Below, one piece after another: positions 49,134 to 53,557 of a stretch of DNA of 64,000 bases (within the stretch, counting starts at the first letter, position 1; every line of letters begins with the position of its first letter). A program made the translations under genes and the position numbers. The notes under the pieces were generated by a model. That model made no database searches. It was given only the letters and a program-made list of their open reading frames with translations, and was not told the DNA's origin. Source of the stretch: Mycobacterium sp. 155 (GTDB taxonomy: Bacteria; Actinomycetota; Actinomycetes; Mycobacteriales; Mycobacteriaceae); the NCBI RefSeq assembly GCF_000373905.1, contig NZ_KB892705.1:124001-188000 (forward strand), written 5' to 3'.

Positions 49134-49955
49134 TTAGGGCGTCGGGCCGTTGCTGCTGATCGGGGCGGCCGGAGCAGGTGTGGTCGGCTGGACAAGGTTG
49201 GGCTCGGTTGCCGCAGCGGCAGCCGGTGCACCTGCGGTGGCCGCCGGTGCCTCCTCCGCCGCCGCGGTCGCGGCGTTGCCGGCACCCGTCGGGGCAGCCC
49301 CCTCGGCTGCAACGGGCAGATCGGTTGCGTGGCTGCCCGCACCGCCGGGAGCCGCGGCCGGTAGGGCCGCAGGCGTTGCGGCGGGTGCCGGAGTGGCTGC
49401 CCCCGGTGCGGCAGCGGGGGCCTCGGCCGGGTGGTTCGCCAGCGGGACGGTGTTGCCGCCGCCGGTCGCGGCGGGCGCAGGCTGGTTCCACACCGCCAGG
49501 TCGGTGCCACCGGCGTTGTACACGACGGTGGTGGGGTCGGCCTCGGTGACGTCGAAGTACACCTTGCCGGAGGTCTTCTCGCCCTGGCCGATAGTGGCCG
49601 GGTTCACGCCCTGCGCGGTGGCCACCTGGAACAGCGCGCGGTAGTTCTGGCCATCCGCGGCGCGGGTGTTGAAGTTGGAGACGATCGGGGTGACCGAGCC
49701 CTGGAGGGCCTCGTTGGTCGCGGTGACCTCCCACAGGGTGCCGTGCACCTGGTAGGGGATCGTGTCGGTGCTGGGCTTGAGGTCGGTGACCGTCCAGCCC
49801 TGGATTACATTGCCGTTGTCCAGCTTCGCTTGGTTGCCTAGTGCCGTGGTGGTGACAGCGCTGTCATCAGCGAGAGCGATGGGAGCCGCGCCGATGATCC
49901 CCGCGGTGGTGACGGCTGCTGCAGCCATCGCAGCACTGACATTCGTGATCTTCAC
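49134..49955 (-). CDS. secreted MPT63-like protein with Pro/Ala-rich tail
   Basis: 273 residues. Sec signal ending ALA (about residue 29), then an MPT63/DUF1942 immunoglobulin-like domain (about 31-155; motifs NVIQGWTV, GTLWEVTATNEA, GQNYRALFQVA, GKVYFDV), followed by about 115 residues rich in Ala and Pro, a likely surface-exposed or O-mannosylated tail. M. tuberculosis MPT63 is a short secreted antigen without such a tail. Pro/Ala-Thr tails are typical targets of Pmt, which is encoded at 6487-8037; modification of this protein is inference. Confidence 0.82.
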   Translation of the reverse strand: MKITNVSAAMAAAAVTTAGIIGAAPIALADDSAVTTTALGNQAKLDNGNVIQGWTVTDLKPSTDTIPYQVHGTLWEVTATNEALQGSVTPIVSNFNTRAADGQNYRALFQVATAQGVNPATIGQGEKTSGKVYFDVTEADPTTVVYNAGGTDLAVWNQPAPAATGGGNTVPLANHPAEAPAAAPGAATPAPAATPAALPAAAPGGAGSHATDLPVAAEGAAPTGAGNAATAAAEEAPAATAGAPAAAAATEPNLVQPTTPAPAAPISSNGPTP

Positions 49956-50092
49956 GATGGTTTACTCCTGAGTGTTTCGACAAGCATCCAATCCAGTCCC
50001 CCGACATGGGATGCTCCTTCAGAGGAAGTTAGCAGGCTAAGAGGTTGCTGTGAAACCGGAGCAGCATATTGCGGTGGTGACGGAAAGACGAA

Positions 50093-50128
50093 AATGGCCT
50101 GCCGCCGGCGTACCGGCAGCAGGCCATT
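50093..50128 (-). terminator. terminator of the Cys-rich peptide gene
   Basis: 16-bp arms (50093-50108 and 50113-50128) pair with one mismatch around a 4-nt loop. Read on the minus strand, the stem starting AATGGCCTGC is followed by TTTTCGTCTTT. It begins 10 bp after the stop of the 35-residue peptide gene. Confidence 0.85.
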
Positions 50129-50137
50129 GTCATGGTG

Positions 50138-50245
50138 TCAGCGTCGTGCGTTGCAGTTCGGCGGGTTACCGCAGTGGTGGCCACCGTCGCAGGAATTGCA
50201 GTGACACGTGCAGGACCCCTTGCCGAGGGTGTGAATAATGCGCAT
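50138..50245 (-). CDS. 35-residue Cys/His-rich peptide, metallothionein-like
   Basis: ATG 50245 to TGA 50138. The peptide begins MRIIHTLGKGS and its second half has the Cys pattern C-x-C-x-C-x2-C-x5-C-x5-C (Cys 12, 14, 16, 19, 25, 31) plus His 5, 15, 23 and 24, ending NARR. The start has AAGGAG 10-11 nt upstream and the gene ends in a strong hairpin, so it forms a complete small transcription unit. The Cys and His density is that of a metal-binding peptide (zinc, copper or cadmium). It is not obviously mycobacterial MymT, which is longer and has another Cys layout. Function is inferred only from composition. Confidence 0.7.
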   Translation of the reverse strand: MRIIHTLGKGSCTCHCNSCDGGHHCGNPPNCNARR

Positions 50246-50464
50246 CGTTGTTCAACTCCTTAGGTGCCCGGACCGTATCGGTGGTGACCGCTAGCAAACG
50301 TCCGAGCTCAGACGAATATCAACATATGACCATTTCACAATAGTTCGGCTCCTGACGAAAATAAAGGATTCCCTACGCCGAGCAGACATGAAAGCGCCCG
50401 ACACGCCGAGGAATTGGGGACCTCTACGTCTGCTCGCCGGTCAATCCGCCGCGCTGGCTAACGG
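50246..50464. other. non-coding region upstream of the Cys-rich peptide gene
   Basis: 219 bp containing the peptide gene's promoter region, with AT-rich CATATG and TTGATATT on its minus strand, and the palindromic repeat 50379-50436 next to the 3' end of prpE. No gene seen. Confidence 0.45.
50379..50436. repeat. palindromic intergenic repeat, copy A
   Basis: The arms CGAGCAGAC (50379-50387) and GTCTGCTCG (50428-50436) pair perfectly; the centre contains GAAAG, CGACACGCCGAGG and TTGGGG. Copy B at 53731-53785 shares most of the centre and the right arm. From memory, related palindromes with CGAGCAGACG arms recur in mycobacterial intergenic regions. It lies just downstream of prpE. Confidence 0.75.
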
Positions 50465-52342
50465 TCAGGAGTCTTGCCCGCGCAGCACCGGCATGAGCGC
50501 GTCCAGCACCCCGGGGTCCTCGATCGTCGACGGCACCGGCTCGTCACGGCCGTCGGCGATGGCGCGCATGGTCTTACGCAGGATCTTGCCCGATCGGGTC
50601 TTCGGCAACGCCGCCACCACGTCGACCTTCTTGAAAAAGGCCACCGCGCCGATGTTGTCGCGCACCGCAGCAACCAGATCCTCGGCCAGCCGGTCGGCAG
50701 ACGCCCCGGACTTGAGCACCACGAATCCCCGCGGTACCTGGCCCTTGATCTCGTCGGCCACGCCGATCACCGCGCATTCCGCCACCGCCGGATGCTGTGC
50801 CAGCACAGCTTCGATCGATCCGGTCGACAGCCGGTGCCCGGCGACGTTGATGACGTCGTCGGTGCGGCCCATCACGAACAGGTAGCCGTCGGAGTCGAGG
50901 TAGCCGCCGTCGCCGGTCAGGTAGTAGCCGGTGAACGCCGACAGGTAAGCCGCCACGTAGCGATGGTCGTCGCCCCACAGGGTGGGTAAGGTCCCCGGCG
51001 GCAGTGGCAGTTTGACGCAGATCGCGCCTTCCTCGCCGGGCTCGGCCACTGCGCCGTCCGAATGCAGGATCTGCACGTCGTACCCCGGCATCGGCACCGT
51101 CGCCGAGCCAGGTTTGACCGGCAGGGGCTGCACGCCCATCGGGTCGGCGGCGATCGCCCAGCCGGTCTCCGTCTGCCACCAGTGGTCGATGACCGGGACG
51201 CCGAGTTTATCGGCGGCCCAGTGGTAGGTGTCGGGGTCGAGCCGCTCGCCGGCCTGGAACAGGTAGTTGAGCCCGGACAGGTCGTGGTTGCCGATCAGCG
51301 TGCCGTCGGGGTCTTCTTTCTTGATGGCGCGGATGGCCGTCGGTGCGGTGAACAGGACCTTGACCTTGTGTTCGGCCGCCACCCGCCAGAACGCCCCGGC
51401 GTCCGGAGTGCCGATCGGTTTGCCCTCATAGAGCACGGTCGTCGCGCCGAGCAGCAGTGGACCGTAGACGATGTAGGAGTGGCCGACCACCCATCCGACG
51501 TCCGAAGCCGCCCAGTACACATCGCCGGGTGCCGTGTCGTAGATGTGCCGCATGCTCCACAGCAGGGCCACCGCGTGCCCGCCGTTGTCGCGCACGATGC
51601 CCTTCGGCTTGCCGGTCGTGCCCGATGTATACAGCACGTACAACGGGTCGGTGGCCGCCACGGGCACCGGGTCGGACGGCGTCGCGGCGGCCGTCAGCTC
51701 CCGCCAGTCGTGGTCACGGCCGGCAACCAGTTCGCAGGGGCATTGTTCGCGCTGCAGGATCACGCAGGCCCGGGGCTCGTGTTCGGCGATCTGGAGTGCG
51801 GCGTCGAGCATCGGCTTGTATTCGACGATGCGGCTCGGCTCGATGCCGCACGACGCGCTGACCACGACCACCGGCCGCGCGTCGTCGATCCGGGCGGCGA
51901 GTTCGTGGGCGGCGAAACCGCCGAACACCACCGAATGCACGGCGCCGAGCCGTGCGCAAGCCAGCATCGCGATCACGGCTTCGGGGACCATGGGCATGTA
52001 GACGACTACCAGATCGCCCTTGCTGACTCCCAAATCACTTAAGGCTCCCGCGAATTGGGCAGTGGCATCGCGCAGCTCCCGGTACGTGTAGGTGCGCTTG
52101 ATGCCGGTGACGGGGGAGTCGTAGATCAGCGCGGCCTGGTCGCCCCGTTCGGCGATGTGCCGATCGAGTGTGTTGGCGCAGGTGTTCAGTTCGCCGTCCG
52201 GGAACCAGCGATAGAACGGCGGGTTGCTGTCGTCCAGAATTTGTCGCGGTTCGCGGGTCCAGGTGATCGCCTTGGCAGCGTCGGCCCAGAAAGTGGCCGG
52301 ATCGTTGATGCTGACGTCGAAGAGGTCACGATAACCGGACAT
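50465..52342 (-). CDS. prpE: propionyl-CoA synthetase / short-chain acyl-CoA synthetase
   Basis: 625 residues from ATG 52342. ACS-type adenylating enzyme: LYVLYTSGTTGKPKGIVRD (P-loop, about 238-256), ASDVGWVVGHSYIVYGPLL (about 285), WWQTETGW (about 388-395), YLTGDGGYLD, GRTDDVINVAGHRLSTG and the C-terminal SGKILRKTMR (catalytic, acetylatable Lys about 596). VGHSYIVYGPLL and the following residues fit PrpE better than Acs. It makes propionyl-CoA (possibly also acetyl-CoA). TACGGT (minus strand, 52355-52350) 7 nt upstream suggests a leaderless transcript. An IS110 element ends about 45 bp upstream. Confidence 0.87.
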   Translation of the reverse strand: MSGYRDLFDVSINDPATFWADAAKAITWTREPRQILDDSNPPFYRWFPDGELNTCANTLDRHIAERGDQAALIYDSPVTGIKRTYTYRELRDATAQFAGALSDLGVSKGDLVVVYMPMVPEAVIAMLACARLGAVHSVVFGGFAAHELAARIDDARPVVVVSASCGIEPSRIVEYKPMLDAALQIAEHEPRACVILQREQCPCELVAGRDHDWRELTAAATPSDPVPVAATDPLYVLYTSGTTGKPKGIVRDNGGHAVALLWSMRHIYDTAPGDVYWAASDVGWVVGHSYIVYGPLLLGATTVLYEGKPIGTPDAGAFWRVAAEHKVKVLFTAPTAIRAIKKEDPDGTLIGNHDLSGLNYLFQAGERLDPDTYHWAADKLGVPVIDHWWQTETGWAIAADPMGVQPLPVKPGSATVPMPGYDVQILHSDGAVAEPGEEGAICVKLPLPPGTLPTLWGDDHRYVAAYLSAFTGYYLTGDGGYLDSDGYLFVMGRTDDVINVAGHRLSTGSIEAVLAQHPAVAECAVIGVADEIKGQVPRGFVVLKSGASADRLAEDLVAAVRDNIGAVAFFKKVDVVAALPKTRSGKILRKTMRAIADGRDEPVPSTIEDPGVLDALMPVLRGQDS

Positions 52343-52385
52343 GGCGCACACCGTAGCCGTTGACAGTTTCCTCCGGCGAGCAATA

Positions 52386-53557
52386 GCTCCTATGTCAAGC
52401 CGCTGCTGATTGTGGCGGCTGACTGGGGGTTTGGTGGTCGGGGTGGCCGGCGTCGCGGCGGAGGGCTTGGTAGACGCGGCGGGCGATGCGGCGTTTGACG
52501 CAGCGCCGGGCGGCGGCTTTGGTTTTCCCGGCATCGACCAGCTTGTGGTAGTAGATCTGCCCGGCGCTGCCGGTCATGCGGATCTGGGTGACGGCGATGC
52601 GGTGGAGGGCAGTGTTGAGTTGACGGTTACCGGCGCGGCTGAGCCGCATCTGCCCGGCGCTGGCCCCCGACCACGCCGGGATGGGCGCGACTCCGGCGTG
52701 ACAGGCGAACGCCGCCTCACTGGTGAACCGGGTGACGCCGGCGGCTTCGCCGACGATCTTGGCCGCAGTCAGCTCCGCGCAGCCGGGGATCTCCAGCAGC
52801 GCCGGGGCGGACCGGTGCGCGCTGGCCGCCAAACGCTTGGCTAAGGCGTTGATCTCGCTGGTGAGTCGGATGATGTCGGTCAGCTCTGCGCGGGCAATTT
52901 CGGCGACCAGACCCGGCAGCTCCGTCAGCCAGGCCATGAGCGTCTGCTGCTGCTTGACGGCACTGAGTGAGCCCACCGCGGCGGCCCGCTCGGGATCGAG
53001 GTCATGGGCATGCCAGAGCAACCGGTTGATCGCCGAGGTACGTTGTGCTACAAGGACATCACGGCGATCGGTCAACAGTTTGAACTCCCGCGACGTCTCG
53101 TCATGAGACGCCACCGGCAGGTCGGGTTCCCGCAGCACCGCCCGGGCCACCGCGAGCGCATCGATCGGATCGGACTTGCCCCTCACCCGCGCGGACTTGC
53201 GGGTCTGGGCCATCAGCTTGGTGGGCACCCGGACCACTTTTTGCCCGGCGCCCAGCAGGTCACGTTCCAGGCGCGCGGACATGTTGCGGCAGTCCTCGAT
53301 GCCCCAGATCAGCTCGGTGCCGAACTGCTCGCGCGCCCACATGATGGCCGTGTGGTGCCCGGCGGTGGTGGCCTTGACGGTCTTCTCGCCGAGCTTGCGT
53401 CCAACCTCGTTGACCGCGACAAAGGTGTGGCTGCGCTTGTGTACATCGGCTCCAACAACAACCATGGTGGTTGCCTCCTTCAGTCATGAAGAGGGGGTGT
53501 ATTGAGGTTGGGCCGGGCGGCGGACACTTCTCAGTCGGGGCGATGCCACGCTCCTAT
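52386..53557. mobile_element. IS110-family insertion sequence (approximate limits)
   Basis: The limits are tentative: GCTCCTAT occurs at 52386-52393, just after the transposase stop, and again at 53550-53557 upstream of it, followed in both cases by a CAAG within 5 nt. IS110 elements lack long terminal inverted repeats, have a short 3' flank and a longer 5' non-coding flank, as here. The non-coding part may extend further, up to about 53730. Confidence 0.5.
52395..53465 (-). CDS. IS110-family transposase (DEDD recombinase)
   Basis: 356 residues. N-terminal RuvC-like DEDD domain: VVVGADVHKRSH (Asp about 6), WGIEDCRNMSA (Glu about 56) and GKSDPIDALAVARA (Asp pair about 98-101); C-terminal transposase_20 domain with IPGCAELTAAKIVGE and CHAGVAPIPAWSGAS, where the Ser near GAS is the family's catalytic serine region. 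Full length. IS110 recombinases use a bridge RNA encoded in the element's non-coding end to choose target and donor DNA. Confidence 0.93.
   Translation of the reverse strand: MVVVGADVHKRSHTFVAVNEVGRKLGEKTVKATTAGHHTAIMWAREQFGTELIWGIEDCRNMSARLERDLLGAGQKVVRVPTKLMAQTRKSARVRGKSDPIDALAVARAVLREPDLPVASHDETSREFKLLTDRRDVLVAQRTSAINRLLWHAHDLDPERAAAVGSLSAVKQQQTLMAWLTELPGLVAEIARAELTDIIRLTSEINALAKRLAASAHRSAPALLEIPGCAELTAAKIVGEAAGVTRFTSEAAFACHAGVAPIPAWSGASAGQMRLSRAGNRQLNTALHRIAVTQIRMTGSAGQIYYHKLVDAGKTKAAARRCVKRRIARRVYQALRRDAGHPDHQTPSQPPQSAAA

Follow-up and report, generated by a model that had tools for sequence, protein, structure and literature searches.

The minus strand of the window (the whole analysed stretch of 64,000 nt of contig NZ_KB892705.1 from Mycobacterium sp. 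155) contains a 35-codon open reading frame (ORF) that, judging from its homologues and the selection on its codons, is a real, conserved gene for a Cys- and His-rich microprotein. The peptide likely binds metal, and we estimate, with a rough probability of 0.6, that it serves the cell as a buffer or scavenger of metal, in the manner of a minimal metallothionein. Its composition, the lack of a matching family and of a confident metal-free fold fit a metal-binding peptide of a new class.

The ORF begins with an ATG at 50245 and ends with a TGA at 50140-50138 (translation: MRIIHTLGKGSCTCHCNSCDGGHHCGNPPNCNARR); an earlier note on this DNA had described the start codon, the AAGGAG in front of it, the 35 codons, the six Cys and the four His, and all of these were found as claimed. 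In the window copy the Cys residues occupy positions 12, 14, 16, 19, 25 and 31 and the His residues positions 5, 15, 23 and 24, so that Cys makes up 6 of 35 residues (17%), or 6 of 20 (30%) from the first to the last Cys. Such Cys richness alone is not rare, as the window has 333 ORFs of 25-60 aa and 7 of them contain at least six Cys, and the case for a real gene rests on conservation instead; among these seven, a Shine-Dalgarno-like site is found before this ORF only. The gene is flanked by a gene for an AMP-binding acyl-CoA synthetase (ending at 50465) and a DUF1942 gene (starting at 49955); the features assigned between them are collected in the table.

Features of the microprotein gene (positions in the window)
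Feature	Position	Strand	Description	Basis
Probable extended -10 region	50335..50345	-	conserved AACTATTGTGA; TATTGT at 50342-50337	conservation
Operator-like element	50316..50330	-	GTCATATGTTGATAT, consensus GTCATAT-N3-GAT, 5 nt after AACTATTGTG	conservation
Leader stem-loop	50267..50306	-	conserved TTTGCT segment	predicted from alignment
Shine-Dalgarno sequence	50256..50261	-	AAGGAG, 10 nt before the ATG	AGGAG unchanged across all 20 rows of the alignment (window copy and 19 relatives)
Cys6/His microprotein ORF	50138..50245	-	stop codon included	homologues, selection
Probable terminator	50083..50128	-	16-pair hairpin (stem 50128-50093) and interrupted T tail	predicted

As to the surroundings in the window, the DUF1942 protein (49134-49955, minus strand) has 273 aa and a long Ala/Pro-rich C-terminal tail. 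A 46-codon ATG frame with several Cys and His (HECQCCDGCSSRHHRG) at 49867-50007 on the same strand overlaps the beginning of the DUF1942 gene and probably just reads it out of frame. On the other side, the ORF of an IS110-family transposase (52395-53465, minus strand) extends over the first codons of the synthetase gene if that gene is given its longest reading (50465-52534), and the IS110 insertion may have reset the promoter or the start of that gene.

A single-sequence search of 118 genomes of the genus detected at least 29 relatives besides the window copy, with the same Cys layout and a variable N terminus, and a profile search (E-value <= 0.01) found the peptide in 149 of 396 genus genomes, a count that takes in paralogue-type copies. 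In the order the peptide is present in 19 of 397 genomes, 16 of the 19 belonging to the genus, and in the class in 14 of 394, all of which belong to this genus (1 of 137 genera); by these counts the gene is nearly confined to the genus. Of the three matches in the order from outside the genus, the one in genome G551 (E-value 1.9e-4) retains the exact ligand spacing. The other two were dismissed as chance, since the match in G509 revealed no motif on reading and that in G753 is merely an unlike stretch within a 514-codon frame. The G551 relative (L166/L189) lies ~0.65 kb from an ORF identified by eye as a Fur-family-like regulator. Named records yielded 73 loci, nearly all titled Mycobacterium or Mycolicibacterium and including M. 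peregrinum, M. senegalense, M. septicum, M. hodleri, M. rhodesiae and M. sphagni; 72 of them possess the motif and were used further, while L097, which does not, was excluded. The pattern used for this search, CD[GQ]GHHC[GH], misses divergent members, and a species missing from the list does not equal absence of the gene. Most members that we read have 28-42 residues, and a few are longer. Two further subfamilies, occurring as extra or sole copies, have the same Cys6-His core and other, often longer N termini (L185 in G300, L186 in G145, L187 and L197 in G123, L188 in G170, L195 in G142). In G300 and G123 the paralogue copy adjoins a hydroxyacid dehydrogenase gene and is near Opp-type ABC transporter genes (named by eye). 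In the window's own genome the search for paralogues gave two weak matches (E-values 0.2 and 1.8), taken as chance, and the plasmid search returned merely four weak matches (E-values 4-8), also ascribed to chance.

Alignment of 24 diverse members reveals the invariant pattern C-x-C-x-C-x2-C-x4-H-C-x(5,6)-C, i.e. six Cys and one His, and the same ligand spacing is observed across the 51 rows of a larger alignment. The conservation of Cys and His positions expected in the earlier note is thus found for the six Cys and H24; the remaining three His of the window copy (H5, H15 and H23) vary, H23 being replaced by A, E, R, T, V, G or D in other members. This distribution bears on the idea of a small Fe-S peptide of the CDGSH type, which comes to mind because the window copy and its close relatives have C-D-G-G-H after a C-x-C. 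In the CDGSH domain C-D-G-[SAT]-H is conserved, its His standing four residues past the Cys, and about 8 residues separate CxC from CDG. In the peptide this spacing is 2, no family match is found in Pfam, and D20, G21 and H23 change in diverse members (CKNQAHC, CGGGEHC and others) while H24 stays. With only H24 invariant and H23 variable, reading the CDGGH string as a CDGSH iron-sulfur motif is not supported, and we regard the assignment as very improbable.

The dN/dS ratio, a check proposed in the earlier note, indicates purifying selection: outside the search anchor it amounts to 0.07-0.29, with values of 0.20-0.29 in the GN type (52 loci with 44 distinct sequences) and 0.07-0.12 in the HN type (20 loci with 18 distinct sequences), calculated for eight codons on each side of the anchor and staying within 0.01 when L097 is included. 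The core between the first and the last Cys gave 0.06-0.08, a value biased downward because the loci were selected on part of the core, so that the flank-only values are preferable. Compared in pairs, the 42 distinct cores that share the window's type differ 1412, 1292 and 6784 times at codon positions 1, 2 and 3, respectively, and the other two frames exhibit the opposite pattern, with pS lower than pN. To judge from these substitutions, the codons are under purifying selection. The frame is conserved, the six Cys and one His do not vary, and 71 of the 72 named relatives have a Shine-Dalgarno-like site ahead of an ATG or GTG that is in frame. Together with the promoter element described below, this bears out well the proposal of a real small gene in which the Cys and His positions matter.

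Gly, Asn and Pro are also conserved alongside His and Cys, which suggests a more specific fold or partner than expected of a plain buffer. The main rival to the metallothionein-like reading is a one-zinc module with a partner: a structural, zinc-knuckle-like microprotein that would hold one Zn tightly and bind protein or nucleic acid, with no buffering. It is consistent with the conserved non-ligand residues (an Asn two residues past the HC in 23 of the 24 diverse members), with the basic C terminus of many members (RR, RK, KK, VKL) and with a ligand pattern that is fixed, the number of Cys not being variable. However, one site would need four ligands and the peptide has seven that are invariant, zinc knuckles do not usually show an alternating C-x-C-x-C, and neither a match to a solved structure nor a confident fold was obtained; we consider this alternative unlikely, though the most serious of those weighed here.

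The family and structure searches behind these statements were as follows. The window copy has no Pfam match at E-value <= 1, and for three relatives searched at E-value <= 10 the sole match is the spore photoproduct lyase family, below threshold (E-value 0.21). NCBIfam contains no matching family, and the sequences of solved structures (PDB) gave no match at E-value <= 10. A protein database search reported 46 relatives at E-value <= 1, none with a Pfam domain, which are unnamed or called hypothetical, "calcium-binding" or "EGF-like". AlphaFold2 predicted no confident fold (pLDDT 60 with one sequence and 53 with 51 sequences), and such low values are as expected of a peptide predicted to fold only with metal, and equally of a disordered one. 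Four motif strings of the peptide are absent from the open-access literature searched, where no description of the peptide was found either. Within these collections the Cys6-His peptide has no known family.

Metallothioneins are defined by low mass, CxC and CxxC motifs, few or no aromatic residues, a high metal content in metal-thiolate clusters and about 20-30% Cys. The peptide shares the low mass, the motifs and the scarcity of aromatic residues (F, Y and W are absent from the window copy, and members with YIKK, YIRK or YVRK have one Tyr); its six Cys are few for a metallothionein at 17% of the whole window copy, against 30% between the first and the last Cys. Similar in size and Cys number is the gamma domain of wheat Ec-1, with about 20-25 residues, six Cys in CxC-type spacing and two divalent metals; this comparison is an analogy only, the domain being part of a plant protein with a spacing unlike that of the peptide and no conserved His. 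MymT, the mycobacterial copper metallothionein, is likewise a small, Cys-rich, mycobacterial metal binder presumed to be cytosolic, but it is longer (about 53 aa) and has another Cys layout and a RicR-type promoter. Bacterial metallothioneins of the SmtA/BmtA/PflQ2MT type, which we take to be the content of the Pfam family Metallothio_Pro, also combine Cys and His ligands; they are longer than 35 residues, and the peptide has six Cys and no match to the Metallothio_Pro profile in the Pfam searches above. The binding of 3-4 Zn(II) by SmtA and PflQ2MT is described in PMC10612145 as tighter than that of animal and plant metallothioneins. PacL1-3 (DUF1490) are likewise metal-related small mycobacterial proteins, encoded beside P1B ATPases; excerpts of PMC9374683 describe a transmembrane segment in PacL proteins and, in PacL1, Zn binding and a C-terminal Asp/His motif. 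The peptide has neither the transmembrane segment nor the Asp/His motif.

The gene has a leader, and in the window's clade and an M. fortuitum-like clade this contains the predicted stem-loop, in which a double change affects 5 of the 26 pairs in the prediction; in other clades the leader is shorter and lacks the stem-loop. Rfam identified nothing between 49500 and 51000 at E-value <= 1. The stem-loop, with its invariant TTTGCT, could be more than an insulator. A putative base pairing between operator and start region was set aside, as the predicted pairs hardly vary and the complement is missing in other clades. Downstream, the hairpin begins 9 nt past the stop codon, and 35 of the 72 relatives have, within 60 nt of the stop, a hairpin that scores z < -2 relative to mononucleotide shuffles. 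Of the strong hairpin with a T run that the earlier note took for the gene's own terminator, the 16-pair hairpin is present; the T run is short and interrupted (TTTTCGTCTTTC), is missing from the closest relative among those listed (L004/L033) and is not conserved.

A Cys-rich short ORF followed by a hairpin could also be a regulatory leader peptide, on which ribosome stalling at Cys codons would control the downstream gene, and polycysteine short ORFs are known from mycobacteria: as summarized in parts of PMC9094748, which cites Canestrari et al. 2020, these are leaderless and located upstream of an operon. With our peptide they share shortness and Cys richness. The peptide gene is leadered, with the Shine-Dalgarno-like site mentioned above, and its conserved residues include His, Asn, Gly and Pro, not Cys alone. 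The downstream genes vary: the first one differs by clade, and in 18 of the 72 loci a simple ORF caller places the next gene on the opposite strand, which argues against a general leader-peptide role. We find this alternative improbable.

Upstream, the assignment of the -10 region is probable by conservation, and it stands in a fixed relation to the operator-like element. In 35 of the 72 loci AACTATnGT(G/C) is followed exactly 5 nt on by GTCATAT, or a close variant, -N3-GAT (AAA for GAT in one), with a spacing of 3-7 nt allowed in the search; the stretch that opens with AACTAT and closes with the ATG is 51 to 104 nt long in these 35 loci. The fixed spacing to the -10 region together with the free spacing to the start codon suggests an operator that acts as DNA close to where transcription starts, and speaks against an element of translation. 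In the remaining 37 loci the operator-like element could not be recognised. A search for the composite of promoter and operator (<= 3 mismatches; zero matches for the reversed control pattern) found it in 14 of 116 genus genomes, once each and in all 14 directly upstream of the peptide gene; the peptide is present in 37 of those 116 genomes, 23 of which are without the strict composite. The 37 loci and these 23 genomes count against the proposed metallothionein-like gene with its own switch. Scanning the same 116 genomes for the operator alone with one mismatch produced 11 matches (reversed control: one match, in G075), of which nine overlap composite sites. The two extra matches are one that ends 67 nt before the peptide gene (G066:C69) and one on a different contig from it (G107:C49). 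In the window's own genome GTCATATGTTGATAT has a single exact copy, and its one-mismatch copy sits within an ORF. In the clades that have the composite element this looks like a one-gene regulon.

The genomic neighborhood, in which clusters were named by eye except where a family search is mentioned, bears on synteny, another point raised in the earlier note: a Ppx/GppA gene is found within 8 kb in 57 of the 73 loci, but the nearer neighbors change. Upstream there is a synthetase, kdpE or an alcohol dehydrogenase, and the first downstream gene encodes a DUF4383-type membrane protein in 31 of the 72 loci (Pfam was checked on two proteins). In 17 of the 72 loci an NmtR-type ArsR gene is located directly upstream, divergent from a gene for a heavy-metal P1B ATPase; both families were tested on one locus, L042, where NmtR is the best PDB match of the ArsR-type regulator (2lkp, E-value 3e-44). 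In L042 and related loci (L039-L069) the region from the synthetase to ppx contains P1B ATPase, nmtR-type, transporter-like, lgt-like, TrsS-like radical SAM and DUF1942 genes around the peptide gene. The identification of another neighbor, c15, as a ZIP transporter by eye received no support from Pfam. In the other loci the neighbors are the acyl-CoA synthetase, kdp genes, the DUF4383 protein and ppx/eno. Going by these assignments, 17 of the 72 loci have a metal-gene context, which fits the metallothionein-like reading; that this context is not general counts against it.

The same context raises the question whether the peptide gene is a target of NmtR, a Ni/Co sensor, and belongs to Ni/Co export. 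An NmtR relative (E-value <= 1e-30) is encoded in 9 of the 14 operator-bearing genomes, in 2 of 19 with the peptide but without the strict operator (those searched of the 23 such genomes) and in 2 of 15 without the peptide, and the difference between 9/14 and 4/34 gives a Fisher p of 0.0005, uncorrected for relatedness. However, five of the 14 genomes (G020, also G013, G033, G041 and G098) have an intact operator and no NmtR at E-value <= 1e-30, and the conserved element of the nmtR/ATPase promoter is a different sequence from the operator of the peptide gene. For these two reasons we do not name NmtR as the regulator, and its control of the gene appears improbable.

Returning to the metallothionein-like reading, we propose that the peptide, presumably cytosolic, would fold around metal through six thiolates and one imidazole within 20 residues, because metal-thiolate peptides typically alternate CxC and CxxC, have no aromatic residues and give no predicted fold. 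With seven ligands in 20 residues, it would be better suited to two divalent ions, such as Zn or Cd, or to a Cu(I)-thiolate cluster of small size than to one zinc site. A putative repressor at the transcription start would keep the gene inducible, probably by metal or thiol stress, and once induced the peptide would take up the excess ion. We further speculate, more tentatively, that the family is a new, nearly genus-specific class of minimal metallothioneins (Cys6-His, with at least two metals per ~20 residues) with a dedicated one-gene switch, the sensor of which would lie outside the known mycobacterial metal sensors.

A gene of under 40 codons is easily missed by annotation. The near-private promoter element would offer a direct route to the sensor, and the peptide is short enough for peptide synthesis. 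Mycobacterial metal defence has been studied via efflux pumps, PacL partners and one copper metallothionein. If the metallothionein-like reading is true, the peptide would be a second thiolate peptide, apparently unrelated to the copper metallothionein and with an operator-like element of its own, and, with more than a third of the genus genomes carrying the gene, it would add an extra buffering arm to mycobacterial metal defence.
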